A stretch of 64,000 nucleotides of DNA from Trichomonas vaginalis G3. Taxonomy: Eukaryota; Parabasalia; Trichomonadida; Trichomonadidae. Position numbers and translations under genes: made by a program. The stretch lies in assembly GCF_026262505.1 (NCBI RefSeq), contig NC_067207.1:22660082-22724081 (forward strand). Direction: 5' to 3'. The notes beneath the pieces were generated by a model. The model ran no database searches. It was not told the origin of the DNA and saw nothing but the letters and a program-made list of their open reading frames with translations. Shown here in pieces: positions 13,741 to 28,338 of the stretch (positions are counted from its first letter, which is position 1; every line of letters starts with the position of its first letter).

Positions 13741-13979
13741 ATTTTTAATCGTAATAAAAAATGTCAATTATCAATATTATTTCGAATAATAACTGTGAAT
13801 TAAATTTAACAGTTAGCGGAATTTATAATGTTACTCTCGTTTCTGTGAGTGGTAAATTTAATCCCATTCTTTTAGACCCTTCAGATTATATATCATTTAT
13901 TAAAGATGACCTTGAAAAAACGTATGATATGTATATAAATAATGTGATAACGAAATGGGATATTAACATGATTATTGTT

Positions 13980-13985
13980 GCATGC
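13980..13985. repeat. 6-bp duplication GCATGC flanking the 2-kb insert (left)
   Basis: GCATGC at 13980-13985 and again at 15984-15989. Collapsing the two copies restores the reading frame of the interrupted gene, which supports this as the target duplication. Because GCATGC is palindromic, part of it could belong to the termini. Confidence 0.7.
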
Positions 13986-14289
13986 TAAGTTCGGTCAAAA
14001 TGTAAACCTCTCAATTTTATCGTCGGGGGAAGTAACTCAATTCCTTCAAAATTATTCTTTAAATATTGAATTTAAAGTTATTTAATTTGGATTATAAATA
14101 AATAGGCTAATACAATATTTAAAAATGAGAAAAAATAACTTTTCAAAGAACTTTTCATAATCTCAAAGAAAATTTTTTATTCAATAATTATATAAATTAA
14201 TTAACATTCATAATGAAATTGGATTTTTTTATAAAAAATTGGTCCTACTTAACTTTTTGAGAGAATTTGGCTTTCTCGTCAACGAAAAA

Positions 14290-15574
14290 GGGGATTTGAC
14301 GGAGTCAAATCCCCGCTCACAAAAAGTGGACTTTACATGTCAAATTTTATATGCATGTAATGTCCACTTTTATGAGTTTTAGGAAGGAATTGGAAGCCAT
14401 GAGTTACTGACATTGCATCAGTATCTCATAGCCTCCAATTCCTTCAAAAAATGGGAGAAACTTTGTCCGAATAGTTTAACATTCGGACAAAGTTTCTCCC
14501 ATTTTAAGAAGGAATTGGAGGGTAAGAGATATACCATATGAATGTATATCTCTTACCCTCCAATTCCTTCTAGAAAGTGTCCAAACTTTGGGTTAATTGC
14601 AAAGTATTAACCCAAAGTTTGGACACTTTCAAGTGGAGATGGAAGGCTTTGGGGTATATATTAATACAATATACCTCAAAGCCTTCCATCTCCACTACAA
14701 ATGTGAGAAACTTTGTCCGAATAGTTTAACATTCGGACAAAGTTTCTCCCATCTTTCAATGTAATTGCTACCTGTGAGGTACTGACTTGAAGTCAGTGCT
14801 TCACAGGTAGCAATATCCAAAAATTTAAAAACATTTTATCAGTTCGTTAGAGAACTAGAGCCTCCTAGGTACTGAACCAGAATCAGTGCCTAGGGGACTC
14901 TAGTGATCTATATAAATCTGAGAAACTTTGAGGAAATTGTTCGACATTTCCCTCAAAGTTTCTCAGCAATTTAGCGAGGAATGTTCGTTATCGTGTAGAT
15001 ATTTATAATATATACATGATAACAAACATTCCCCGCTAAAAGATGTAAAATCTTATAAGAAATAATTGCAAAAGAATAACAAATTGCAACAAATTTTATA
15101 TGAAACTGAACCTTATGAGGTAGTGATTCAAGATCACCGCCTCATAAGATTCAGTTTCAATCTCAAGTATCTCAAAAGTAAGGCTCTATTTTTTGCCATG
15201 TAAAGTGTCACTTTCCCTATCCAAATGATAAGTTATTCAGAGAAAGTTTCCCAGCTATCAAGAGGGAATTGTTCCTTATGAGGTATATATTCATACTGTA
15301 TACCTCATAAGGAACAATTCCCTCCTTAAAACGAGAAAACTTGTTCGAAATTGTTTATCATTTCGAACAAGTTTTCTCGTTTTTAATAAGAAACTAAAGG
15401 CTATGAGGCACTGATTATATATTAGTGCCTCACAGCCTTTAGTTTCTAATAGATAGCTGGGAAACTTTCTCCAAATGATAAGTTATTCAGAGAAAGTTTC
15501 CCAGCTATCAAGAGGGAATTGTTCCTTATGAGGTATATAGTTATAATGTATACCTCATAAGGAACAATTCCCTC
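14290..15574. repeat. Array of about 18 near-perfect hairpins of two alternating classes
   Basis: Units: 14290-14314, 14322-14371, 14383-14445 (B), 14450-14503 (A), 14507-14571 (B), 14573-14630 (A), 14633-14695 (B), 14701-14752 (A), 14764-14814 (B), 14854-14904 (B), 14918-14966 (A), 14973-15037 (B), 15103-15157 (B), 15262-15324 (B), 15330-15381 (A), 15390-15446 (B), 15454-15507 (A), 15512-15574 (B). Class A arms carry AAACTTTG/CAAAGTTT and mostly 8-nt loops; class B arms carry GAGGYACTGA-like cores and 5-9 nt loops. Outer arms differ between units yet stay complementary. Confidence 0.95.
15220..15539 (+). repeat. 69-bp direct repeat within the hairpin array, spacing 250 bp
   Basis: 15221-15289 and 15471-15539 are identical (starting CCAAATGATAAGTTATTCAG). 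The first copy contains only the right arm of a class A hairpin plus the left arm of the next class B unit, so it looks like a partial duplication that left one hairpin half without its partner. Confidence 0.9.
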
Positions 15575-16494
15575 ATTAAAATCGTAGATATTTTTTACTT
15601 ATTACTCATGCTTTCAAAATCACAATCCTCTGAAAAGTTATTTTTTATTAAGAATTTAGAATTTTGATAAATACCTTTTTTCAATTTGATATAATACTTA
15701 TATATTTTCAAAAAGACATTTTGAAAAGATATCTCAAAAGTTCTCTGAAAACCTATTTTTGATTAATTTTGAGAAATATCCGTATTAAATTAATCAATAA
15801 ATTCATTCAACACTACTTTAATTTTTAAATTCAAAAAATTATATGTGCTTCTTAAAATGTCTCACAAAAATTTTATTATAAAATTATATACAATATTAAA
15901 AATCCCACAACATTTTTTACTTTACATAATCGTACTTCCTCGACGATTAATCTCCCCTCAATTCCTATCGTTGACCGAACTTAGCATGCAACATTATAAG
16001 TTATTTAAATGAATCATTTATCGTATGGTATGAAGAAAATTTTAAATCAAAACCCGATAAACTTTTTGAACTTGATGAAATAAATAACCTTATTAAATTT
16101 CCGCTGAAAATTAAATTTTGTACTCCTCATCTTCGTTCATTGTTGGGGATATTAAATTTTGAAAAAGATGTTGGGGATGTTTTGTATTCTGACACTGGTT
16201 CCAATTTCATTTTAATCAAATGTGATAAAGTTAATACCCCAATGAGATTTTCACATCAAACATTAGACCCTAACTCTTACCCATCAATACAAAACATTTT
16301 ATCCATCAACTTAAACATATTTTCTTTATCATATCCGTTTCAATTATCCGGGAATTCATTTATTCTTCATTCAAAAGATTTATCAAATATTAAATTTAGA
16401 ATAACTGACCTATTTGATTGTGATTTAGAATTCATGAATGAAATATTATGGCAATTTCAAATAGAAAAAATAGCTGATGAGATAACGGATTAAA

Positions 16495-16520
16495 TATTTA
16501 TTTTTAAATCATAATAAATG
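16495..16520 (+). promoter_or_regulatory. T-rich tract plus ATAAATG start element (fibre gene)
   Basis: TATTTATTTTTAAATCATAA followed by TAAATG, ending at the fibre-gene ATG. Same organisation as at the capsid gene start. Confidence 0.45.
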
Positions 16521-17828
16521 ATTAAACAACAGCAACCACAGCAACTTAAGGCACAGACCATTACATACGCCATATATGCATATAATTCAAAGACGGCAGA
16601 ACAAACGCAAATGTTGAAATATGGAGATTTGGAGATAGTATTGAAAAATGACCATTTCGAATTCGTTTGCAAAGGTGGTGCAGTGATATCAAATATAAAA
16701 GAAATTTTATTTATGAATTCAAAAATTAAAGGAATAACGGATGATATAACATCAATTCCACCAGAAGAACAAAGATATTACGCATTAAATGCATTTCCTA
16801 AAGTTTTGAAGATTGGAAGATTTAATTTAAATGAGGAATTCATAAAAGGTTTCCTAAATGACATAATGAAGAAAGCAGATAAGGAATACGTGGATAGTGA
16901 GTTAGAGGAGAAAGCAGATAAGGGACTTGTGGCTAGTGAATTAATGAAGAAGGCAGATAAGGAATATGTTAATGAAAAAGATAATGAAATTATAGAAAGG
17001 GTTGAATGGTATCATGAACGGACATCGAAGATTCTTAAAACTAAAGCTGATACAGGATGGGTTTCAGAATGTTTAGACCTTAAAGCAGATAAAACTTATG
17101 TTAACAATGAGTTAGAGGAGAAAGCAGATAAGAACCATACACATACAAGTTTTACAACTGTTGCTATAGAAAGTATTGAAGGAACGGTTGAAGAAACTGG
17201 TGGGGATGTATTATATTGTAAACCTCCTAACTTTCCACAAGGTTTAACATCGGATGACGACATAACGACGATGAGAAACATTAGATGTAAAGATGTTTAT
17301 GTCATGAAGGATGAACATAATATTAAATTCACTGCTCAAGATTTATATGACAAGAAAGCAGACAAAAAAGAGCTTCAAACATTAAAGACAGAAATGCTTC
17401 AAACATTATATCCTATAGGCTCTATTTATACGTCAATGAACTCAACAAATCCAGAAGTAGTACTTGGTTTTGGAACTTGGACTCAAATAGTCGACAGGTT
17501 TTTGTATTGTGCAAACTCTTCAAAGGAAACAGGGGGAAGTAAAACGATTACAGGTGAAAATTTACCTGCACACAGTCACTACATAGATTTAAGCACATCT
17601 CAAGCGGGTTGGCATAAGCATAGATATTGGGATTGGTCAGGAATGATAAAAGGTAAAGGATATGATGTTAAAGACAACGTTAAGTTTGCCATAAATTGTT
17701 ACTGGAGTAACACTGAGGGAGGAGGAAACCATACACATCGCGTTTCAGGATATACGCAAACAACGGGACAAAGTAAAGATTACATGCCACCTTACATGAC
17801 AGTTTACGCATGGTATAGAGTTCAATGA
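16518..17828 (+). CDS. Fibre protein with phage tail-collar-type C-terminal domain
   Basis: 436 residues in three parts. Residues about 1-110 form a globular N-terminus. Residues about 115-200 hold repeated KADKEYVDSELEEKADK-like units, the pattern of trimeric coiled-coil fibre shafts. Residues about 298-436 match phage tail collar/baseplate receptor-binding domains: YPIGSIYTSMNSTNPEVVLG, GTWTQIVDRFLYC, ETGGSKTITGENLPAHSH near 351, GGGNHTHRVSGYT near 405, and the closing MPPYMTVYAWYRVQ. The HxH motifs correspond to the metal-binding histidines of T4 gp12-type tips. It is probably the receptor-binding spike of a Polinton virion, likely acquired from a bacteriophage-type source. Frame intact. 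Confidence 0.85.
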   Translation: MIKQQQPQQLKAQTITYAIYAYNSKTAEQTQMLKYGDLEIVLKNDHFEFVCKGGAVISNIKEILFMNSKIKGITDDITSIPPEEQRYYALNAFPKVLKIGRFNLNEEFIKGFLNDIMKKADKEYVDSELEEKADKGLVASELMKKADKEYVNEKDNEIIERVEWYHERTSKILKTKADTGWVSECLDLKADKTYVNNELEEKADKNHTHTSFTTVAIESIEGTVEETGGDVLYCKPPNFPQGLTSDDDITTMRNIRCKDVYVMKDEHNIKFTAQDLYDKKADKKELQTLKTEMLQTLYPIGSIYTSMNSTNPEVVLGFGTWTQIVDRFLYCANSSKETGGSKTITGENLPAHSHYIDLSTSQAGWHKHRYWDWSGMIKGKGYDVKDNVKFAINCYWSNTEGGGNHTHRVSGYTQTTGQSKDYMPPYMTVYAWYRVQ

Positions 17829-17857
17829 ACGCTCAATGTTTGTGAAACAAACTTTAG

Positions 17858-17899
17858 GAGCTCCAAAAGAGCAAACGGCATAATTTAAATTTTTATTTT
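17858..17899 (+). repeat. 42-bp direct repeat, copy 1 (copy 2 at 18862-18903)
   Basis: Starts GAGCTCCAAAAGAGCAAACG and ends in the T-rich start element of the next small gene. The identical 42 bp recurs 1004 bp downstream before the gene at 18912. The two copies bracket a cassette with two small genes and a tRNA-like sequence. Confidence 0.9.
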
Positions 17900-17906
17900 A
17901 GTATAA

Positions 17907-18041
17907 ATGAAGATTCTACCATATGGTGTTATTGGAAGAGATAAAGATGGAAACCCAATATTTGATCCAAAGTTAAAATTAAAGTTACTGACAAGACAAC
18001 AACTTGAAAAGTTGCTGAAACCAAAACAGAATGAAAAATGA
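17907..18041 (+). CDS. Small Polinton ORF, 44 aa
   Basis: MKILPYGVIGRDKDGNPIFD... then a Lys/Leu-rich helix (LKLLTRQQLEKLLKPKQ). Not recognised. It starts at a T-rich tract plus ATAAATG at the end of the first 42-bp repeat and is followed by short GAGAAAAT repeats. The RQQLEKLLK ending resembles the TKDELNKMMIK ending of the next small gene and the TREEMIKMMQE of the gene at 18912, so the three may be distant relatives. Confidence 0.5.
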   Translation: MKILPYGVIGRDKDGNPIFDPKLKLKLLTRQQLEKLLKPKQNEK

Positions 18042-18100
18042 GAAAATGAGAAAATGAGAAAGAAAAAAATTTAAATTATGCAATTTTATTTTTATCATAA

Positions 18101-18283
18101 ATGACCAAATTAATTAAGCCAACTATTTCTAAATTAATGATACCAATGAAATCATTTCATGGAGTACTTATCCCAGGTTCTTCACAATTAGCCGGGGCAA
18201 GTGTTGTGACTCAAGGTGGAACATTAGCGAATCCATTCAAATTATTAACTAAAGATGAACTTAATAAAATGATGATAAAATAA
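18101..18283 (+). CDS. Small Polinton ORF, 60 aa
   Basis: MTKLIKPTISKLMIPMKSFH... GSSQLAGASVVTQGGTLANP FKLLTKDELNKMMIK as successive segments. Not recognised. It follows a T-rich tract plus TCATAAATG. A short Gly/Ser-rich centre and terminal helix suggest a structural peptide. It shares the x-L-T-K/R-D/E-E/Q-L ending with the two neighbouring small genes. Confidence 0.5.
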   Translation: MTKLIKPTISKLMIPMKSFHGVLIPGSSQLAGASVVTQGGTLANPFKLLTKDELNKMMIK

Positions 18284-18911
18284 CTGATAACAAAATTTTA
18301 TTTCACTGCTACCATAAAAACAGGTGAAAAAACAGGTGAGATCTCACCTCTTCACCTAAAATATATTTTAGGTTAAAGCTTCCACGAGAGAAAAGATTCC
18401 TCATTCGCTAAGGATTCCAAAAATGAAAAAATCATTGATTTCGGCTGAGAAAAAATAGCAAAACCCTTCTTCCACGGGAACAAAGAAATAAAGAAGAAAT
18501 AAAGAAGAAATAAAGTAAATTTTTTATTTATTCCCGTGGAAGATAGAGCACTTTTATGACACTTTTTATTCACGACAAACAAGACAAACAAAGAAAATAA
18601 GAAAATACGGCGCCGTCGCGGTTCGAACCACAGACCCTGACCCCTCCATAACACTACCTTAGACCACTGTGCTACGTAGCCTGTCGACATAAGATTTTAT
18701 AAATTGCATATTTGACGTAAATTTATTTCCCAGTTATTCAAAAATAATTAATTATTGAATAACCTAAAATCATTAATGAAAACATAAACGATAACATTTA
18801 TTTCCTGTGTTGTTGTCAAAATGTCATGTTGTCTCAAACTTTAGAACGAACTGAAAGTCCTGAGCTCCAAAAGAGCAAACGGCATAATTTAAATTTTTAT
18901 TTTTATCATAA
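18284..18911. other. Non-coding stretch with palindromes and an inverted repeat
   Basis: 628 bp without a supported gene. It contains two perfect palindromes side by side, AGGTGAGATCTCACCT (18334-18349) and CCTAAAATATATTTTAGG (18355-18372), and an inverted repeat CTTCCACGGGAA (18469-18480) / TTCCCGTGGAAG (18531-18542) enclosing AAAGAAGAAAT repeats. A tRNA-like sequence follows at 18609-18682 and the second 42-bp repeat at 18862. The palindromes may end transcription or mark an old insertion. Confidence 0.7.
18609..18682 (-). pseudogene. Degenerate tRNA-like sequence (pol III A and B boxes)
   Basis: On the minus strand, 73-74 nt with an A-box TAGCACAGTGG (18664-18674), a B-box GGTTCGAACC (18620-18629) and acceptor-like ends GGCTACG / CGGCGCC pairing 5 of 7. 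The T arm can pair (TGTGG/CCGCG with GU pairs) but has a 6-nt loop, and I cannot fold a proper anticodon arm, so this is not a functional tRNA as read. It is markedly GC-richer than its surroundings. A tRNA-derived relic or short retroposon head is likely. Confidence 0.5.
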
Positions 18912-19076
18912 ATGAATACCCCACAAGCTCAAAATTTACCACGAATCATAACAAGGGAGGAAATGATAAAAATGATGCAAGAACATGTTAAAAATAACAA
19001 ACCACTAAAACTGAGAAAATGTGGTTATGCAGTAATGATGGAAAGAGAGATGTTGTCGAAGAGGAATAAAAATTAA
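18912..19076 (+). CDS. Small Polinton ORF, 54 aa
   Basis: MNTPQAQNLPRIITREEMIK then a charged helix and a basic C-terminus ending MLSKRNKN. Not recognised. It starts at the T-rich tract and TCATAAATG supplied by the second 42-bp repeat. Its stop overlaps the stop of the convergent gene at 19073-19336 by four bases. Confidence 0.5.
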   Translation: MNTPQAQNLPRIITREEMIKMMQEHVKNNKPLKLRKCGYAVMMEREMLSKRNKN

Positions 19077-19336
19077 ATTTGGATTGAGTTTAAAAATTCA
19101 TCTTTATTAAATTCATCTCTTCCAATCAATTTATTTATTCTATTAAATTCTTTTATTTTTGCTTCACTCAGTTTAAGGATTGAACGGTAAGTTTCTAATT
19201 TTTCGATTATTTCTTTATCGTTTTCAACCCCACCACATTGCGACTTCTTTTTGTAATAGCATATTTTTGATTTAATTCTGTTTAGTTTCTTTTTATATTC
19301 ATTGTCTGGACTCTTGACTGCTTTGTTGTCACTCAT
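19073..19336 (-). CDS. Small Polinton protein, 87 aa, coiled-coil
   Basis: A Lys/Glu-rich helical protein: KKLNRIKSKICYYKKKSQCG, then KEIIEKLETYRSILKLSEAK and a C-terminal NKDEFLNSIQI. No named family. It lies just downstream of the broken integrase in the same direction (21 bp after its stop), so it may be co-transcribed with it. Confidence 0.5.
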   Translation of the reverse strand: MSDNKAVKSPDNEYKKKLNRIKSKICYYKKKSQCGGVENDKEIIEKLETYRSILKLSEAKIKEFNRINKLIGRDEFNKDEFLNSIQI

Positions 19337-19356
19337 TTTCTTACGAAATAAAAAAA

Positions 19357-20903
19357 TTAAATATTATTTAAATATAATGGAGTAATAAAATAAATCGGAA
19401 TTTCTATTAATTTATTGTTAACCTCAACTAATGCATTGCCGTTAATATATCTAACAAATTCAGCTATTGTGTCAAATCTTCGTCTTCTTTTTGTCATTGA
19501 TTTATCAGTTTTTCCATAATCGAGATGAATCAAAACTTTATCCCCTTGTTTAAAATTCATGAGCCCCGAATTAATTTGTTCACGTTTAACATCATTCAAC
19601 CTTTCCATTTGCTTTCTAATATATTCCCATTCTTTTGAAATATCATTTTTCATTTCCACTGGTTTCATGTTTATAGTTCTATGCCATGTATTATTGTAAT
19701 AATATACTAACTGCTGTATGATGGAGTCATGATTTCCATCCCAGTATATCTGACCGTTAACCCCTAACGCATCTCTAAGAGTTCTCATTACTGCATCAAC
19801 TATTTTATTATGAAACGTATATGGAGAGGATGAAAAGTAAAAATTAATTTGTGGGAAATAATGAGTCATAGCTGCCTGAAATCCTTTATCACCATCACCC
19901 TTATATTATCTACTCTTTCATGATCTAGTAAGTATTGAATAGCTCTTCTTGTTTCCTGTTCTGTTTTCCCTTTCACTGGAATGCAATATAAATATCTGGT
20001 GTTAATGTTAATGGTAAATAAATAAGTAACGTTTCCTTTTGAATATTCCAGATGATCAATTTCATATGAATATGGATATGGTGCAAATGAAGGGCGACTA
20101 AATTTTTCCTTTAACGGTTGAATTTTTGGGTCAATTGGTTTATTTAATATCTTGAAATCCTTTTTAAAATCTTTTTGTTTCTTTAATGTTTGAAATGGAT
20201 ATAATAAAGTGAATGATGAAGGATTAACTGAAGGAGGAGGTGGTTTTGGTGTTGCAGGTACTGTCGTTAGAGGTTTTGGTGTTGCAAGTGGTTTAATTTT
20301 ATCTGCTTTGATTTTGGATGATGAAGTTTTGGAATTCATTCCTTCCTTCATTAATTCTGGATGTATTCTATTCATTTGTTTTAAATATGCTGTATATAAA
20401 GGTTTAATATACTTTCCCGCTTCGAGTTTATGTTGAAGGATGAATTCCAAAAGTTGATCTTCATTTAAAAGTCGGGCTGAATATGGTTTAACTAATGAAT
20501 CATAAATTAAAGCTTGTGCCTCATTTATGGTCTGAAGGACCTGGGCGTTTTGCACCTTTTGTTTTGCTCCTTTTGCTTTTGCGGCTCAGGATTATATAAT
20601 TTATATAATTCATCAATATCTTCTTCTGTTAATACTTTATTTTTAAAATCTTTCAATTGTTTAAGTTGTGATTTAGTTTTTCCCTTTGAATATTCATTAT
20701 TTTTAATTTTGTCTTTAATTTCAGAAATTATTTTATCATGATATTTCAAAATTTCATTTTTATAATACGAATAATAATAATCCATATCATCACCCGTTAT
20801 ATTTTTATTATATTTGGAGATATGCTTTTAAATCATAATAATCAAGAAAATTTTGATTAAATACTAAATCATCAATTAAAATTTTTAAATCTGTGTTATC
20901 CAT
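19357..20903 (-). pseudogene. INT: Retroviral-type integrase (Polinton INT), broken by three frameshifts
   Basis: Pieces in reading order: 20903-20811 (start MDNTDLKILIDDL at a T-rich tract and ATAAATG), about 20839-20525 (coiled-coil, YYYSYYKNEILKYHDKII), 20555-19866 (linker with a Pro-rich stretch TPKPPPPSV, then the core YSYEIDHLEY with the first catalytic Asp, VTYLFTININTRYLYCIPV) and 19869-19357, whose upstream frame reads GDGDKGFQAA (second Asp) and continues SPYTFHNKIVDAVMRTLRD and a basic SH3-like C-terminus FKQGDKVLIHL. The usual Glu appears as Asp in IVDAV. Total about 500 codons. Each junction is consistent with a 1-2 nt indel near A-rich runs. Integrase joins element ends to target DNA; this copy should be inactive as read. 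Confidence 0.8.
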
Positions 20904-21000
20904 TTATATAAAAATAAAATAAATGTTTTAAGGGTGCCCACCTCTTTGAATCATAGTACAAAACCATTATTAACGGTTCCTTTTGTCTCTTCTGTGGCAT
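20896..21000 (-). CDS. Possible 34-aa ORF between polymerase and integrase
   Basis: MPQKRQKEPLIMVLYYDSKR... encoded just after the polymerase stop and overlapping the integrase start by eight bases. Basic N-terminus, aromatic C-terminus. It lacks the ATAAATG start context of the other element genes, and may be only spacer sequence that contains the integrase promoter. Confidence 0.2.
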   Translation of the reverse strand: MPQKRQKEPLIMVLYYDSKRWAPLKHLFYFYING

Positions 21001-21004
21001 TTCA

Positions 21005-24000
21005 TTAAATAAATGGCATACAACATCCATTTTCACAACATACAGCCTTAGTGTGTGCTCCTGTTAATGCAGTCTTACCAATTGTTAAGCGAGTCATTGA
21101 CCCGTTTTTAAGTTGTAAATTAATATTCTGACCATCAAATATCACTTTATCATTTATTATATCCAAATAATTTTTAGGTGTTAATTGTTTATTTTGTCGT
21201 AAACTAACTCCTTTCATTTTTTGTGCAATCTTTTTAAAATCACCCCCATCAATTGAACCGTTGAATGATGTATAACACTTAGGACATAAAGCAACCATGT
21301 TATCACCTTGTTTCTCAATTGCTAAACCCAATAACTTCTTCTCATGTGCTTTTTCTTCAGCTTTATTCTTTAATTTAGGTTTAAATTTCTCATCAAAACA
21401 GAAGAAATCAAAAGGTGCGAATTTGTAAATGTTTTTATCATAAAATTGTTTATCGGTTACAATTGCTTGAAATGCTTGAGTGTTAGGAAGATTTGGGTCG
21501 CCAGCGATTGCCCAATAAGATGAATCAGTATCACCTTCAATGAAATGAAAACGATTAACATTCATGCATTTATACATAAAATCATAAATGAAAACCAAAT
21601 ACCAGTATTTTGCATTATCTAAAGTGAAGAATGCCTCTTGTAAACATGTATCACATCTATAAAATCTATCTTTAAGCATCACTTGATACGTATCTTCACC
21701 TATTTCTCTTATGTTTTTAAACTTATTTGACATACATGCAACGCGTGCCTTCTGTGCATTCATTATTTTAGTCTTTGCGTAATTTTGTGTATTCATTGCA
21801 TCGTAACCATATGATCCATTAAGTGAAATCTTGCAAAATAAACTTTTTCCTTTATTTCCTTCTAATTCCGCCTTTTGTCTTTCGTTCATAAATTCGTTCG
21901 CAAATTCATTAAAACAAGTATTTTTCGTAAATGTTAAAATTGATTGAATGTCATCAATGATAAAATGAAATCTGTCTATTAGATACCAAAGATAATAAGA
22001 AGAAAATGGTTGATATTGGTTGTGTGTTGATGCTAACTGAGTTAATTTTCTCTGTTTCTGGTCAACTGGTAGATTGTTTGATTTCATGTAATTATACATA
22101 AAACTGCCAATTGTTTTTTCATCTGTGATAATATCTAAGTTTCTTATTATCGGTAAAAAGTTTATGTAATCATTAATGTATTTTTCATCAATGTGACCCT
22201 TTACTTCAGCCACGAATAAAGTATTTTTCTTTCTAATTATTCCCAATGCTTTTGCTTTCTTTGTTGCTGTATCACAAATGATAACACCATTCAATCTTCC
22301 CGGCATATACATTTTATGGTCAGTATATTGAATGAAATCATGAGGATTAGATGAAAATGATGAAGGATATAATGAATTAAAGTCAACTCCAACAAAATGA
22401 GTCATAATGTTGGAAGTGTCCTCATTTGATACAGTTTTAGTTTCTGGACTATATGAAAGTTTATTAATGTGCGTGATTCCTTTAAGATTAACACGATGTT
22501 GAACATTTGATAGACCACCAGTAATTCCATTACGGAGAATGTGATAAGCTTCAACTGAATCTAAAGTCATTGGTAAATTATTTTTTAATGTATAATTTCT
22601 TAAATTGATTCTTAAACGTTGAACATCCTCATCTTTATTTGATTTTACGACATTGCAATAACAACACATTAACTGACAATTTTCTTTGGTATGTGGTTTT
22701 TCATTATCGATTCTATCCAATGTTGGTTTATTAGCATATGTAAACGCTTTACCACACATTTTGCATTTAGATGAAAGGATTAAATCGTGATAGTATTGAA
22801 AATCATCCATTGAAACATTGTTTTTAGTATCCCTTTCTGCTTTTTCATCTTGTTTCTTATATGATTCAATTTTATATTTCCAATACTTTTTCGTTAATTC
22901 AAAACTTGATTCCACATTTTCTTCTTCTGGATATTTTTCGTTAGGATTAAAGTCTTTATATGCTAAAGCGTAACGAATCATTGATGCATTCGATGATAAA
23001 GAAAGATTATGAAGCATGTCAATTTTATAAACAAATGTTTCTTCGATAATTTTATCAATTGGGTCAATCATAATTTCAACATCTTTATTGCAATAATGAA
23101 TAAAATATTCTAATCTATTCTTAAAGTTTTTAGCATCATTGAGATATATTTGATAATCACTATCTGATATAGTTTCTTGAGTTAATGCTGAATAAAATGA
23201 ATCTTGAGTGAATGGTTCCTCTTTATATAATTCTTCTTCGTAATTTTCCCATGTGATGAATTGATAAGGGAAAAAGGATTTAACACGTGATTTATTGTTT
23301 CCGAAATCTTGAGTGAATTGGTCTAATGTCCCACCCGCTATATAATTTCTGATGTCAATAAATCTCAATTCATATGGAACGTTTGTTTTCTTTACAATGA
23401 TTTGCTTAAATTGAGAAGATGAACCCAGCATTGATTTTATTTTCCATTTTGCAGTGTTTAAATCACGAAGAATTAAATTTAAATCAAACTTTCCCGAATT
23501 AAAACCTATGATATTCACTTTATTGAATTCCTCATCTAGAAGTTCTTTAAATGCTTCCTTTTGTTTCTCATTTAATGTTTGTGACTTCATTAATTCTTCA
23601 TATTGTTCAATATTTGATTTAGCAACTAATGAACAGGTTGAAAATAAAAACTCAATCCAATCAGAAATAAAAGAATCACTTGAAGTTAAGCAAAAATTCC
23701 TCGTAAATGTTTTATCACGGTCTACGACCTCGCCGCTTTGCGGCTTTATTTTGACAGTTGATGATACCATGAATGGTTTTAAGTAAGCATTCAAAGTTGC
23801 ACATTCAGAAAGTTGAAGTTCTTCTTTAGTCTCTAATGTTTCGAAGTCAAAAGTAATATAATATCTTGTTGGTTTATAATATTCCTGCAAATTATGTGCT
23901 AATAGCCATTGATATATCTTCTGTTTCGTGATATGTGGTGCATATGGTTGTTGTGTGTTTTGCAATTGAACGTCTTGAATTAATCTTCCATTATTTTCTT

Positions 24001-24481
24001 TACATTTCTCACAATGTTTTAAAAATCTTCTTTGGTTTTTCCTTTCTGGATCATCACGGATAGAATATACTTCTTCTTTGCAAAAGGGGCAAACTCTATA
24101 GCCGGTGAGTGCTTCAACGTCTGTTATTCTGTCAGCGTGAAGTTTTCCACATGGACTCTGTGTTAGTAAAATATTTACTGTTTCAAATTCTGGATCTATC
24201 ATTATTGATTCCACTAATGGAAAGTCTACCTTGTTAATGTCTACGTCTTCTGGTTGAGGGTCACAATAATAAAAATCAATATTAACGTTTAACATTCTTG
24301 CTAACCTCTCACTTTCTGATGAAATGTCAAACCCTTCATATGCATCTATTGCTTCATTTAAATAGCTTCTACGAGTTTTAGGATTAACACCATCAGGAAT
24401 GTTATAGAAGCGTTTAAATAACCTTCTACCTTCTGCTCTAATTTGATTATCATTCATTTTAGCTGTTCCGTTTTTGTTCAT
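21005..24481 (-). CDS. POLB: Protein-primed DNA polymerase, family B, with embedded HNH-like domain
   Basis: 1158 residues, intact. Exonuclease: ExoI ITFDFETLE (Asp near 211), ExoII FNSGKFDLNLIL near 325, ExoIII YCNKDVEIM near 460. Polymerase: motif A VDFNSLYPSSF (Asp near 699), motif B KISLNGSYGYDAMN near 883, motif C EGDTDSSYW near 983. Between exonuclease and motif A, residues about 570-625 carry a zinc HNH-like module CKMCGK...TLDRIDNEKPHTKENC...CCYCN. N-terminal CPFC...HCEKC (about 130-165) and C-terminal CPKC/CCENGCC clusters look zinc-binding. It replicates the linear element from a terminal protein. The gene starts at a T-rich tract and ATAAATG. Confidence 0.95.
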   Translation of the reverse strand: MNKNGTAKMNDNQIRAEGRRLFKRFYNIPDGVNPKTRRSYLNEAIDAYEGFDISSESERLARMLNVNIDFYYCDPQPEDVDINKVDFPLVESIMIDPEFETVNILLTQSPCGKLHADRITDVEALTGYRVCPFCKEEVYSIRDDPERKNQRRFLKHCEKCKENNGRLIQDVQLQNTQQPYAPHITKQKIYQWLLAHNLQEYYKPTRYYITFDFETLETKEELQLSECATLNAYLKPFMVSSTVKIKPQSGEVVDRDKTFTRNFCLTSSDSFISDWIEFLFSTCSLVAKSNIEQYEELMKSQTLNEKQKEAFKELLDEEFNKVNIIGFNSGKFDLNLILRDLNTAKWKIKSMLGSSSQFKQIIVKKTNVPYELRFIDIRNYIAGGTLDQFTQDFGNNKSRVKSFFPYQFITWENYEEELYKEEPFTQDSFYSALTQETISDSDYQIYLNDAKNFKNRLEYFIHYCNKDVEIMIDPIDKIIEETFVYKIDMLHNLSLSSNASMIRYALAYKDFNPNEKYPEEENVESSFELTKKYWKYKIESYKKQDEKAERDTKNNVSMDDFQYYHDLILSSKCKMCGKAFTYANKPTLDRIDNEKPHTKENCQLMCCYCNVVKSNKDEDVQRLRINLRNYTLKNNLPMTLDSVEAYHILRNGITGGLSNVQHRVNLKGITHINKLSYSPETKTVSNEDTSNIMTHFVGVDFNSLYPSSFSSNPHDFIQYTDHKMYMPGRLNGVIICDTATKKAKALGIIRKKNTLFVAEVKGHIDEKYINDYINFLPIIRNLDIITDEKTIGSFMYNYMKSNNLPVDQKQRKLTQLASTHNQYQPFSSYYLWYLIDRFHFIIDDIQSILTFTKNTCFNEFANEFMNERQKAELEGNKGKSLFCKISLNGSYGYDAMNTQNYAKTKIMNAQKARVACMSNKFKNIREIGEDTYQVMLKDRFYRCDTCLQEAFFTLDNAKYWYLVFIYDFMYKCMNVNRFHFIEGDTDSSYWAIAGDPNLPNTQAFQAIVTDKQFYDKNIYKFAPFDFFCFDEKFKPKLKNKAEEKAHEKKLLGLAIEKQGDNMVALCPKCYTSFNGSIDGGDFKKIAQKMKGVSLRQNKQLTPKNYLDIINDKVIFDGQNINLQLKNGSMTRLTIGKTALTGAHTKAVCCENGCCMPFI

Positions 24482-24506
24482 TTATGTAAGAATAAAAATT
24501 AAAAAA
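24479..24506 (-). promoter_or_regulatory. T-rich tract plus ATAAATG start element (polymerase gene)
   Basis: On the minus strand TTTTAATTTTTATTCTTACA runs into TAAATG at the polymerase start. Same layout as the rightward structural genes, so early and late-type functions share the element. Confidence 0.45.
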
Positions 24507-24563
24507 ATAAATAAAAATAAAGTTTATTTTTTTTTAAAAGTCCGAGACTCAGAGAGTCCAGGG

Positions 24564-25670
24564 CTAAAGTCCATAAAATGAATTAAGAACACATAAATTT
24601 TTATCATCTGCGACGTGACGAATACATTTTAATTTACTCAAGAATGCGTACCCTGATACATTAAATCTAATTCCTGTCTTATTTAATTTCACAACTTTGA
24701 AAAGGAATGTATGAATAGCTATAAAATGATGAGATGATGTTTTATGGGTTGCTTCCATTTTTTCTGAAATAAATGAATAAATATAATGCTTATAAGTTTT
24801 CATATCTTTTATGTTCTTAATAACGAATGGTATAGACCTTTCCACTTCGTCTTCCTTCGGTGCTGTTCTTTCATATGAAACATTATTGGTATCTTCAATA
24901 ATGAAACCACAATCGCATAAAATTTTATATGTTCCAATGGTTTCTTTTGATATTTTATCTAATAAATCAAAAACTTTATCAACACCTGTGCATTTATTTA
25001 AATAATAATTTGTGTAAATATCATGATCTTCTTTCTTAATCGTATTTGTTGCATATGTCACGTTTTTCAATGCTTTTTTGAATTTTTCAGAATCAAGAGG
25101 AGGTGAAAGTAATATACAGGGGTATTCTTCATTATCAATAAATTGTAACTTATGTTTACGAATAAATTTAGTACCTTCTTCTGAAAGTGTTTCGTTTATT
25201 TCACCATCTAATAAATTTTGTGTTGATTCCAAAAAGTAATTTTTATATCTTTCTTCATGAGATTTCTGTACTTCTGATTCTGAAGCTGGGATATTCATTA
25301 AACCCTCTACTTCATTTTCATTATATTTTTCAACTTCTCTTAATTCCTTAATTTTTTCATCTATTTCATCTCTTATTTTTTCCAGTCTTTCAATTTCATC
25401 ATATTCATCATCTTTAATCCGTTCTTCATAATATTCAGGGAAAACATCAGGTTCTTTAGGTTTTTCTTCTTCAGATGTAGGATATAAGAAATTTATAACA
25501 TCATCTTTATTCATTTTTCCATCATAATCTAAATCATTTAATAACTCCACGAATTTTTTACAATTTCTTAAATAATATTTACTAACTTCATAACCTGCCT
25601 CCTCTAATATATCCTTTATTTCCTCGTTTGTGAATCCTAATTTTTTAACGTTGTTAGTTGTGACGCTCAT
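24564..25670 (-). CDS. Polinton protein with charged coiled coil and OTU-like C-terminal motif
   Basis: 368 residues. The N-terminus LGFTNEEIKDILEEAGYEVS resembles a small helical domain; LDYDGKMNKDDVINFL looks EF-hand-like; residues about 85-135 form a highly acidic coiled coil. The C-terminus ends DDKNLCVLNSFYGL, similar to the D-x-x-C...F start of OTU-like cysteine-protease regions that precede polymerase B in related elements; the matching second half (LNEAIDAYEGFD...LNVNIDFYYC...KLHADRI) appears at the N-terminus of the next gene. So an ancestral fused protein may now be split. Terminal-protein function is another possibility. It starts at a T-rich tract and GATAAATG. Confidence 0.55.
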   Translation of the reverse strand: MSVTTNNVKKLGFTNEEIKDILEEAGYEVSKYYLRNCKKFVELLNDLDYDGKMNKDDVINFLYPTSEEEKPKEPDVFPEYYEERIKDDEYDEIERLEKIRDEIDEKIKELREVEKYNENEVEGLMNIPASESEVQKSHEERYKNYFLESTQNLLDGEINETLSEEGTKFIRKHKLQFIDNEEYPCILLSPPLDSEKFKKALKNVTYATNTIKKEDHDIYTNYYLNKCTGVDKVFDLLDKISKETIGTYKILCDCGFIIEDTNNVSYERTAPKEDEVERSIPFVIKNIKDMKTYKHYIYSFISEKMEATHKTSSHHFIAIHTFLFKVVKLNKTGIRFNVSGYAFLSKLKCIRHVADDKNLCVLNSFYGL

Positions 25671-25725
25671 TTATCATTAAATAAAAAAATAAAAAAATAA
25701 ATTATTCAAAAAATGTAAGACATGA

Positions 25726-26485
25726 ATTTTCAAAGTTTATTTTTCATTCATGAAAATAATTATTTCTAATTTCTTTTACTCTCTCGTACATACTAGATTT
25801 AAAGAATTCAGAACTTTTACCATAATCTCCTAAATGTTTTCTTATCCCTAACGTGTGCCAGTTATTATATGAAACTGAATAAACTTTATCTTTATCTTTA
25901 CACCTTTCATCACTTCCAATATATTTATATTTCAATTTTGATTTAGCATTTTCATATTCATTAACGTTTAATAATTCACAGTCTTCCTTTTTAAATAAAT
26001 GTTTTATGTATTCAGGATTTAATACTCTACGTTTATATGCTCCTAACTTAGTTCTAAAGGTTTTTCTACAAAATTTAGGAATTCCATCCTCTTTAATGTC
26101 ATCAATGATTTCCATTTCATTATTTTCAATTTCTTCTTCTCGTTTATGAGGTCTTTGATTATGACTCCATTGATTCCATGAAATTAAATATTCTTTATCA
26201 TTATATTTATACCTCATTAGCTTATTTTGGCTTTCATATTCATTTAATAATTCACAATCTTCATTTTTAAATTGAAGTTTAACCCATTCAGGATTTAAAC
26301 AATGTTTAATTAATCGCGGAATATCTGACATCATCTATATATAGCTTCTTTTATAAAAGATAAAAAAATAAATTATTTTAAAATTAATGTTAATTTTTTT
26401 AATGTGTTTATAAATTATATTTTAATGCATCGTCTATATATAGATGTAACAAAAAAAGTCACTAAACCCTTTCACATATACTACT
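25726..26485 (-). repeat. Right terminal inverted repeat (760 bp)
   Basis: Inverse of 7302-8061, same length, ending ...CACATATACTACT before the ATTTGT duplication. Inner boundary at ATTTTCAAAGTTTATTTTTC (from 25726). Confidence 0.95.
25744..26334 (-). CDS. TIR-encoded two-repeat protein (right copy)
   Basis: Identical 196-residue translation to the left copy at 7453-8043. Both copies point towards the element's interior. Identity of the two copies indicates a young insertion or homogenisation of the termini during protein-primed replication. Function unknown; two LNPExxK...EDCELLN...W modules. Confidence 0.7.
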   Translation of the reverse strand: MMSDIPRLIKHCLNPEWVKLQFKNEDCELLNEYESQNKLMRYKYNDKEYLISWNQWSHNQRPHKREEEIENNEMEIIDDIKEDGIPKFCRKTFRTKLGAYKRRVLNPEYIKHLFKKEDCELLNVNEYENAKSKLKYKYIGSDERCKDKDKVYSVSYNNWHTLGIRKHLGDYGKSSEFFKSSMYERVKEIRNNYFHE

Positions 26486-26491
26486 ATTTGT
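26486..26491. repeat. Right 6-bp target-site duplication of the Polinton
   Basis: ATTTGT directly after the right terminus, matching 7296-7301. The insertion point lies 83 bp beyond the 3' end of the adjacent Pmp-like gene, leaving it intact. Confidence 0.9.
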
Positions 26492-26574
26492 AATGCCCAA
26501 AACAATTTGAAGTAATTGTCATTCCAACATACTCCAAACATTTTTAATATATAACACACACACTTTCTAATAAT

Positions 26575-28338
26575 TTAGCCGAAATCTCCATCTAGTAGAG
26601 TACTTAGGTTATTTCTTTTTTCCAAGCGTTTTAATTTACATTGATGATATATTGCAATGGAAATAGTAATAATTGCAATAAAGACAAGGACACTAAGAAC
26701 AATCACAATGATCTTCCATGTTGTGAATTTAGAAATTGTGATATGAATCAATTTAGTATCACAGCCAATTTGTTTCGAAATAGCAAGATTGTGAACAAAA
26801 TCAATTGTTTCATTGTTGATAGAACAATTTGTAACATTAGAATCGGAAAAGTTGAATGATTGTTCAATAAGAAGATAACAATCGTGAAGTTCTAAATTGT
26901 CATATTCAAATGTAGAAACTGTTGATTCGTTATCGTCATCATATGAATTTTTATAAACAATGCAACTTGTCAAAGAGAGTGATGAACTCTTGATATATGA
27001 TATTCCTTGAATTAACGTGTTTGAAGCAATGACACAGTCTGTGAATTTGCTTGAAAAATCTGAAAAATGCATGTTTTCACCCATGCAGTTATTACTGATG
27101 TTGCATGAATTGAAAATGTTGTCATAGTAAATGTAATTTGTAGTTGATTCTGAGAAATGGGAATATGGTGTGCATTTAATGATTGTTGCCTTAGTAATAC
27201 TAGTAGGATAGTTAGAGTAGATATCGCAGAAATGGCCTCGACCGGCAAAGCAATTTTCACCAATGACATTAGTGATGCTAGTAAACGTTTTATGTCCAAT
27301 AATGTAGATAGCGCCACCGCATGTTTTCTTGGTATAAGTATTTGTAACGCATTGATCAAATTCACAGTTAGTAATGCAAATATTGGATGAGAAACAGCAG
27401 ATTGAGATGGAACCGCCATTATTTGAAGATGTGATGTTGCAAAAGATAACTTTATCGAGTTTAAATTCTCCTTTTATATCTTGGACGATGATTGGTTCTG
27501 ATTGATATTTATTAGTATCAATATATGTTTCTTCTTTGAGATAATTGAGTACTGCTTCTTCATAATATCCTGAAAATGGAACAATTTCTGTATAATTTGT
27601 CGATATTGCTTGTGCCGAGTAATTTCCTAGAATTGCAAACAAATTATCTGAGAAGATATTCTTAACTTCTATATACTGTGTTGAAACAAAATAAGCATTG
27701 CGATTATTTGTTATGTTTTTGAAATATATATTTTCAAAATACGCAAATTTAGTATAGCACGCAAAACATGTTATAGCCTTTGCATTTACTATTGATACAT
27801 ATTTGAAAAACATATTTATTTCATTTATTGGATTCTCACAATACACAATTACTTTATTTGATGAACAATTAATCAAAAATATATAGGATGAAACGGAAAA
27901 ATTAATGATTTCATAATATATGCAATTAGAAATGACATTAGCATTTGATATATTTAAATTTTTGAAATTGATATTGCTTAATCCGTCAATTACTTCTCCC
28001 AAAATGGGATCGGATGTGAATTTTTGTTCCATGTATGAGCAATGGTCCAATGTATTATTATCATATCTTATTACTAGAAGAGCATAATCAGATCTAGTAT
28101 TGAAAAAATTGCATTTGGAAATGTAAGATTGACTTCCGTGTTGAAACATTATTCCATCGCTGTTATATGAATTACATCCGTAGAAAAAACAGTTCTCGAT
28201 ATTTGTATTTTTGTAAATTGTTCTAATTAAGCCTTCTTCTTCGTTAAAGATATTTAATCGGATAAAATTGCAATTCATTACATCAAGAAAATCTAGATTA
28301 TAAATGACTATAGCTGATAAAAATGTCTGATTAGACAT
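26575..28338 (-). CDS. Pmp-like beta-helix surface protein, family A copy 1
   Basis: 587 residues. Dense Asn/Cys/Ser-rich beta-helix repeats with GGAIYI, NNGGSISI and F-x-x-C/N motifs (SNICITNCEFDQC, SKFTDCVIASN), typical of trichomonad proteins likened to chlamydial polymorphic membrane proteins. Near the C-terminus one membrane segment, WKIIVIVLSVLVFIAIITIS, then a short basic tail KLKRLEKRN and terminal DFG. Predicted type I orientation at the cell surface, possible adhesion role by family analogy. No classical signal peptide is visible, so the N-terminus may be incomplete. It diverges from family B copy 1, 140 bp away. Confidence 0.7.
   Translation of the reverse strand: MSNQTFLSAIVIYNLDFLDVMNCNFIRLNIFNEEEGLIRTIYKNTNIENCFFYGCNSYNSDGIMFQHGSQSYISKCNFFNTRSDYALLVIRYDNNTLDHCSYMEQKFTSDPILGEVIDGLSNINFKNLNISNANVISNCIYYEIINFSVSSYIFLINCSSNKVIVYCENPINEINMFFKYVSIVNAKAITCFACYTKFAYFENIYFKNITNNRNAYFVSTQYIEVKNIFSDNLFAILGNYSAQAISTNYTEIVPFSGYYEEAVLNYLKEETYIDTNKYQSEPIIVQDIKGEFKLDKVIFCNITSSNNGGSISICCFSSNICITNCEFDQCVTNTYTKKTCGGAIYIIGHKTFTSITNVIGENCFAGRGHFCDIYSNYPTSITKATIIKCTPYSHFSESTTNYIYYDNIFNSCNISNNCMGENMHFSDFSSKFTDCVIASNTLIQGISYIKSSSLSLTSCIVYKNSYDDDNESTVSTFEYDNLELHDCYLLIEQSFNFSDSNVTNCSINNETIDFVHNLAISKQIGCDTKLIHITISKFTTWKIIVIVLSVLVFIAIITISIAIYHQCKLKRLEKRNNLSTLLDGDFG

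Follow-up and report, generated by a model that had tools for sequence, protein, structure and literature searches.

A Two-Class DNA Hairpin Array inside a Non-Autonomous IS481EU-Type Transposon of Trichomonas vaginalis

Introduction

We show here that a dense array of 18 hairpins in the genome of Trichomonas vaginalis is the interior of a young, high-copy, non-autonomous IS481EU-type DNA transposon. The palindromes belong to two classes, called A and B, and the same two classes recur in several transposon families, mostly with a spacing of about 62.5 bp between the centres of neighbouring units. As the reading of this arrangement that we prefer, with a probability of roughly 0.4, we propose that the array is a cis-acting series of DNA hairpins (cruciforms) that would aid the spread of some IS481EU elements. 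The window referred to below is the whole stretch of DNA that was analysed, 64,000 nucleotides in length.

The IS481EU superfamily was defined by Kojima and Bao in 2023 (PMC10045372), and the terms 'hairpin', 'palindrom' and 'stem' are absent from the main text of that paper. The openly accessible papers and listings that we consulted yielded no description of such a hairpin array in transposons of T. vaginalis, with a possible exception in the CRISPR-like arrays of PMC10696477.

Results and Discussion

The array occupies positions 14290–15574 of the window, in exact agreement with the initial annotation, with the first hairpin beginning at 14290 and the last one finishing at 15574. The 18 hairpins, close to the number estimated at that stage, have arms of 11–34 bp and consist of P0, P1, ten class B units and six class A units. 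P0 (14290–14314, 11-bp arms) and P1 (14322–14371, 18-bp arms) are followed by the series B1 (14383–14445), A1 (14448–14505), B2 (14508–14570), A2 (14573–14630), B3 (14632–14696), A3 (14705–14748) and B4 (14764–14814), then by B5 (14854–14904), A4 (14918–14966) and the diverged B6 (14970–15040), and by B7 (15101–15159). Next to B7 is a broken A unit (15220–15259) that has lost its left arm and copies the loop and right arm of A6 (repeat D2, inverted pair I10), and the array is closed by B8 (15262–15324), A5 (15328–15383), B9 (15389–15447), A6 (15452–15509) and B10 (15512–15574). The unit order bears out the proposal of two classes that mostly alternate. The gaps between units are mostly 1–15 bp, with three longer ones of 39, 60 and 102 bp.

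By an automatic count, which fuses B1-A1-B2 into one long hairpin and omits P0, the array has 15 hairpins with arms of at least 18 bp, while 30 dinucleotide shuffles of 14290–15574 gave none. The same count finds seven hairpins in the rest of the window (62 kb), four of which make up a second A/B array. The stems have a G+C content of 40%, compared to 24% in the remainder of the element. Folded as DNA, six single units give -21.0 to -28.4 kcal/mol. The core AAACTTTG/CAAAGTTT, originally ascribed to class A as a whole, is present in four of the six A units; A5 has AAACTTGTT instead and A6 has AAACTTTC.

We now consider the element that carries the array. It is a non-autonomous transposon of 2018 bp on the plus strand (13976–15993), whose boundaries are common to different insertion sites. 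Its terminal inverted repeats (TIRs) are 23 bp long, the left one, TGTTGCATGCTAAGTTCGGTCAA, at 13976–13998 on the plus strand and the right one at 15971–15993 on the minus strand, and they are flanked by the 4-bp target site duplication (TSD) TTAT at 13972–13975 and 15994–15997. Among 58 elements of the retrieved loci, the 4-bp TSD is exact in 52 and has one mismatch in three, with neither in the remaining three. Membership in IS481EU is well supported: the termini TGT..ACA conform to the TNT..AYA of the superfamily, a 4-bp duplication is one of its TSD lengths (about 4, 15 or 25 bp), and a single IS481-type DDE transposase is found in same-ended relatives (see below). The element can also be described as a MITE, as it is non-coding, has TIRs and a TSD, and is present in high copy; there is no open reading frame of 100 amino acids within 13976–15993.

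In the genome searched (180.9 Mb, six large contigs), assigned to strain G3 by a protein search (P0002, TVAGG3_0696070), the TIR pattern with up to three mismatches occurs at 373+378 places, against two for the reversed control, which, at two ends per element, amounts to some 375 elements. In the initial annotation, the array corresponded to no named nuclear element. A stand-alone element has to be rejected, since the bounding TIRs and TSDs and the copies at many sites place it inside a transposon. The same observations exclude an assembly artefact, the other concern raised at the outset; 44 copies of at least 1.3 kb, the one in the window included, could be aligned.

It can be mentioned that Maverick-like or virus-like genes adjoin the element (window positions 16518–28338), among them a protein with a Gp10_C domain at 16518–17828 and a PolB-type polymerase with a weak HNH match at 21005–24481. 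The transposon may lie inside a gene of this region.

The elements with the same ends in the retrieved loci range from about 0.94 to 3.2 kb. An end variant that marks the short type is found at 108+130 places genome-wide, with none in the control. Among the matches listed there are 64 short-type ends, of which 56 are paired and eight unpaired, and the paired elements comprise 44 of 939–964 bp, five of ca 698 bp, three of 258 bp and four longer ones. The type of about 948 bp, with five hairpins, outnumbers the one with 18, and a larger number of hairpins thus does not go along with a higher copy number. In one 948-bp copy (L048), the longest frame does not exceed 54 amino acids, and any selection on its array would therefore act in cis.

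Two relatives of ca 2.2 kb (L051 and L061) contain a transposase frame followed by seven hairpins. The frame of L061 is uninterrupted and matches Pfam integrase cores (7.7e-10) as well as the NCBIfam models for IS481 (1.2e-27) and IS3 (3.5e-15), in both of these latter cases below the models' own cut-offs; it has at least 125 genome-wide matches (123 of 990 candidates scored). This frame is absent from the window's copy, which is accordingly non-autonomous, and the common ends suggest that the 2018-bp element would be mobilised by a transposase of the L051/L061 type.

Each of 20 further loci (L048–L067), selected for these ends, carried hairpins. The exception among the same-ended elements is the 258-bp form without an array, known from three places. 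These three derivatives (two read whole, the third at its right end only) share one flank and hence represent one insertion. In this small sample, no independent spread of array-less copies was seen.

Two further variants were encountered. The five elements of ca 698 bp (G000 C1:10512585, C1:13723016, C1:15721395, C2:4334037 and C2:14286128) are 250 bp shorter than the 948-bp type and, judging from the lengths, have perhaps lost one four-hairpin period. At L066:501-3727, a copy of the 948-bp type has about 2.3 kb of other DNA within its array; this insert has inverted ends GGATACCCTTAC and, by eye, TTAA on both sides, and looks like a TTAA-targeting transposon.

Hairpins of the same two classes are found in other elements as well. 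The second array in the window (6249–6487) has four hairpins in the order B A B A, spaced by 62.5 bp, and lies between inverted ends of 24 bp (6076–6099 and 7096–7119, 88%); it belongs to a different element of the same kind, probably an older one. At L068, the one locus read of its family, an A/B array is located 3' of a transposase gene with 49% identity. This array lies in inverted orientation and shares 92.7% identity with ours over 329 bp, compared to 70% for the right flank. Whole arrays have thus been exchanged between families, as seen once, and the inverted L068 array shows that both orientations are possible. A third element, whose ends resemble TGTTATATACGAAAA, lies within the L064 copy of our element and carries arrays of its own, and in a fourth element (L057 and L069) a 250-bp unit of four hairpins is repeated. 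The nested element (L064:3275-6001) has, by eye, the duplication ATTT, and it contains about three near-identical 250-bp hairpin repeats.

The genome-wide search for the hairpin cores that had been called for showed both classes to be abundant. The class A pattern, AAACTTTGN{18,32}CAAAGTTT, occurs at 2,267 places (control 12), and the class B pattern, TGAGGYAYN{10,30}RTRCCTCA, at 1,165 (control 2). In two more distant families, L073 (32% transposase identity) and L075 (39%), there are no A/B hairpins in the 0.9–1.1 kb 3' of the transposase, with one locus considered for each, and on this basis the hairpins are dispensable for IS481EU in general. At L073:520-1101 there are instead 121-bp tandem repeats (4.8 copies) 3' of the gene, with a period near that of the 125-bp array dimer. 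A G+C-richer alternating hairpin pair, CAGGAGCCCCAAGGCTCCC and ATCAGCAGAGGCC, was observed at L015:3041-3255 and L063:1917-2093.

We also considered a spread outside Trichomonas. The viral contigs gave no match to the TIR core or the class A pattern. In prokaryotes, there were matches to the class A pattern in three contigs, two of them without a hairpin by the criterion used and the third with one matching hairpin next to two that are unrelated; these matches are probably due to chance.

The covariation of the arms was quantified in alignments of distinct units. In class B (23 units), 95.1% of 552 cells are paired and 128 cells have changed on both sides, compared to 36.2 after shuffling; in class A (15 units), the corresponding values are 94.2% of 359 cells, and 89 against 27.3. 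None of 500 shuffles reached the observed number in either class. Changes on both sides affect 22 of 30 pairs in class B and 20 of 27 in class A, and the signal is lost in both alignments when the partner is shifted by one to three columns. It is important to point out that the rows were chosen as distinct and come from one genome with ancestry by duplication, so the cells cannot be counted as independent. The alignments exclude near-identical repeats within L057, L051 and L048 as well as one L068 unit with a shortened loop.

The arms of different units thus do covary, far beyond the shuffled expectation, as the initial annotation had supposed. Its wider statement, that structure is conserved while sequence changes, has to be qualified in two respects: a DNA-level process may cause the covariation, and the stems are unchanged between the two subfamilies compared below.

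The copies of the element are young enough for individual changes to be followed. In the 44 aligned copies, which are about 99% alike, the number of substitutions per kb is 2.19 in the stems, 1.95 in the element outside the array, 4.1 in the linkers and 7.4 in the loops, where the loop value is inflated because variants common to several copies were counted each time. Within the stems, 76 changes are one-sided and four are two-sided. Three of the four constitute a single coordinated three-pair change, in A2 of copy L039, and the fourth (L032) is not clean when inspected. Independent mutation of the arms, which had been named as evidence against a conserved structure, is therefore seen in part, namely within young copies.

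Other changes bear the marks of hairpins acting as DNA. Exact inversion of the loop with an intact stem was found for B2 in one of the 44 copies (L035), for P0 in three of the 44, where the loop GGA has become TCC, perhaps in one event, and for B9 in one of 13 copies of the 948-bp type (L057). Among the matches listed, there is also a site (C1:92522-92809) with two TCCGAAT units that have opposite loops. In five copies the loop of B8 is of the B10 type, once with an extra base, which points either to one unit having been converted by another or to an older form of the loop. Template switching is described as leaving inverted loops and several simultaneous compensatory changes (PMC8794818). In single cases, our data show that the palindromes are subject to hairpin-type events at the level of DNA: a loop can turn around while its stem stays intact, and both arms can be altered at once, as is expected from template switching or arm-to-arm recombination. 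The complementarity of the arms is thus, at least partly, kept at the DNA level. Arm copying or inversion of this kind can give covariation without selection on RNA, and because such events occur in copies of the array, covariation alone is no proof of an RNA.

Next, 38 copies of the 2018-bp type were compared with 13 of the 948-bp type. Fixed differences between these subfamilies number 0 of 250 sites in the stems, 5 of 49 in the loops, 0 of 14 in the linkers and 47 of 417 to the right of the array. The polymorphic cells are 22 and 51 in the stems and 38 and 29 outside, and the contrast between stems and outside is significant (Fisher 3.9e-7 and 5.7e-15). Of the five loop differences, four are clustered in B8 and probably go back to a single event; when B8 is left aside, only one loop site differs. 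This clustering weakens the use of the loops as neutral controls. As loops without B8 and linkers barely differ, it is the whole array that is little diverged, not the stems alone. In the stretch beside the TIR (15892–15981), 2 of 90 sites differ, and the conservation of the array is thus similar to that of the terminal region of the transposon itself. It can be explained either by selection in cis or by arrays having been exchanged recently.

If the hairpins functioned as RNA, G.U pairs might be expected to be favoured. The strand-true mismatches of the 18 units in the window are seven G.T against 11 A.C (p = 0.48), which gives no sign of G.U selection on the plus strand, and the corresponding one-sided changes at the copy level are 11 and 21 (p = 0.11). 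In the unit alignments, where strands are mixed and rows are oriented by the loop, the numbers are 28 and 23. Together with the occurrence of the array in either orientation and the inversion of loops, these counts lean toward a DNA structure rather than an RNA, with the caveat that RNA made from both strands would likewise show no G.T/A.C bias.

Taken together, the favoured mechanism can be formulated as follows. Template switching or arm-to-arm recombination would keep the arms complementary, which would account for the covariation. In addition, the array would be retained because it benefits the element in cis through a structure of the DNA, either hairpins on single strands or cruciforms, perhaps bound by the transposase or by host factors, and copies with a good array would spread. 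The conservation of the stems, the DNA-level events, the two orientations, the lack of a G.T/A.C bias and the derivation of the array-less forms from one insertion all fit with this cis-acting role. A recent exchange of arrays between the subfamilies, of the kind seen between families, could explain the low divergence as well, and this speaks against it, as do the lack of A/B hairpins at L073 and L075 and the greater abundance of the five-hairpin type.

The most serious competitor is one in which the array does nothing and is carried along by successful ends. A 125-bp A-B dimer would have been amplified in tandem and exchanged between elements, and its arms kept by template switching or recombination. 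The loop inversions, the one-step change of two arms, the B10-type loop of B8, whether through unit conversion or as an older state, the exchanged and inverted array of L068 and the tandem amplification of 250-bp units are all consistent with such neutral, self-made palindromes, and so is the one-sided decay in single copies (76 to 4). We nevertheless regard this scenario as rather unlikely, because no stem site of 250 is fixed for a difference although stems are polymorphic among copies; by reasoning, arm copying by itself should not slow substitution. Moreover, the A/B alternation and the spacing recur in diverged families, and all 20 further loci, selected by their ends, have hairpins, with the 258-bp form as the exception.

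A role of the array as RNA is, in our judgement, unlikely. In that case the array would be transcribed as a row of hairpins of about 60 nt and serve as a source of dsRNA or small RNAs, or as a structure that protects the transcript. The fold of 14376–15162 as RNA is indeed very stable, at -432.5 kcal/mol compared to -165.9 kcal/mol (sd 6.6) for 20 shuffles. The strong covariation in both classes would also be in line with an RNA, and T. vaginalis is reported to have a putative RNase III, two PIWI-like Argonautes and PIWI-type small RNAs of ~34 nt that map to both strands of repeats (PMC7845603). Against this, G.U is not in excess over A.C mismatches, which RNA from both strands would equally fail to show, the loops can invert, and at L068, one locus of another family, the array is inverted relative to the gene. 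In addition, deep sequencing is described as having yielded few miRNAs (0.0046%; PMC7844918). No Rfam family matches the window at the gathering score, which argues against a known structured RNA, and no tRNA was found.

The spacing of the units raises the option that they are inverted pairs of sites in duplex DNA, about six helical turns apart, bound by a transposase or host protein with no hairpin in the working state. In ten stretches from eight arrays, 44 of 61 distances between neighbouring centres are exactly 62.5 bp and 58 are within 61.5–63.5 bp, and the aligned units have cores around AAACTTTG and GAGGTA in common; this option is nevertheless improbable, as the complementarity extends far past any common core and the arm sequences differ between units. 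Since the sequence outside the array has no more than two fixed indels by our analysis, the units may simply have inherited their regular distances, which also weakens the spacing as proof of selection.

A comparison with known systems helps to place the element. It resembles the IS481EU elements of PMC10045372 in species, in its TGT..ACA ends, TIRs below 50 bp and 4-bp TSD, in the IS481-like transposase of same-ended relatives and in the existence of non-autonomous forms, whereas the hairpin array comes in addition, in some of the families. The bacterial REP/BIME/REPIN sequences also consist of many short palindromes with regular spacing and alternating orientation (PMC2817692), and REP-type palindromes are regarded as non-autonomous mobile DNA (PMC8266576). 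Unlike them, the present palindromes are internal to a transposon that has TIRs and is related to DDE transposases, and a REP/RAYT system could be discarded, as PF01797 (Y1 HUH) has no match in the genome while being positive in five of 14 control genomes. A broader formulation, possible but in our eyes doubtful, is that a modular, exchangeable DNA hairpin array of two alternating classes acts in cis, in a eukaryotic cut-and-paste lineage, as a structural enhancer of the lineage's own spread, as the DDE counterpart of REP/BIME, and is kept near-perfect by template switching.

Hairpins made by template switching (PMC8794818, PMC8604942) have in common with ours the inverted loops, the extension of stems and the simultaneous occurrence of several compensatory changes; in the work cited they are described for RNA and protein genes and not for tandem palindromes that number in the thousands within transposons. 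Internally structured foldback and MITE elements are likewise non-coding, bounded by TIRs and of high copy number. Foldback elements carry repeats within long TIRs, whereas the TIR is 23 bp here and the hairpins are internal.

The 'CRISPR-like' arrays of T. vaginalis, with 20-60-bp repeats and short inverted repeats over 600-1500 bp (PMC10696477), may be of the same kind, as compared by description only; the present array differs in belonging to a transposon and in having units that are not identical repeats. CRISPR itself can be set aside, since there are two differing unit classes, mostly 1-15 bp apart, rather than identical repeats with unique spacers. Of the roles suggested in the initial annotation, hairpins of replication or transposition and hairpin RNA are possible, whereas an integron-like attC role finds no support; the units lie within a TIR/TSD transposon.

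Conclusions

If the array does act in cis, DNA secondary structure would be part of the success of a DDE transposon in a nuclear genome, and T. vaginalis, with its thousands of such hairpins, would be a natural place to study this. Even if the array is idle, it serves as a warning that strong covariation in tests designed for RNA may come, at least partly, from arm copying at the DNA level, and the dozens of young copies make single events of this type visible. Finally, part of the unclassified repeats of T. vaginalis may gain a name.
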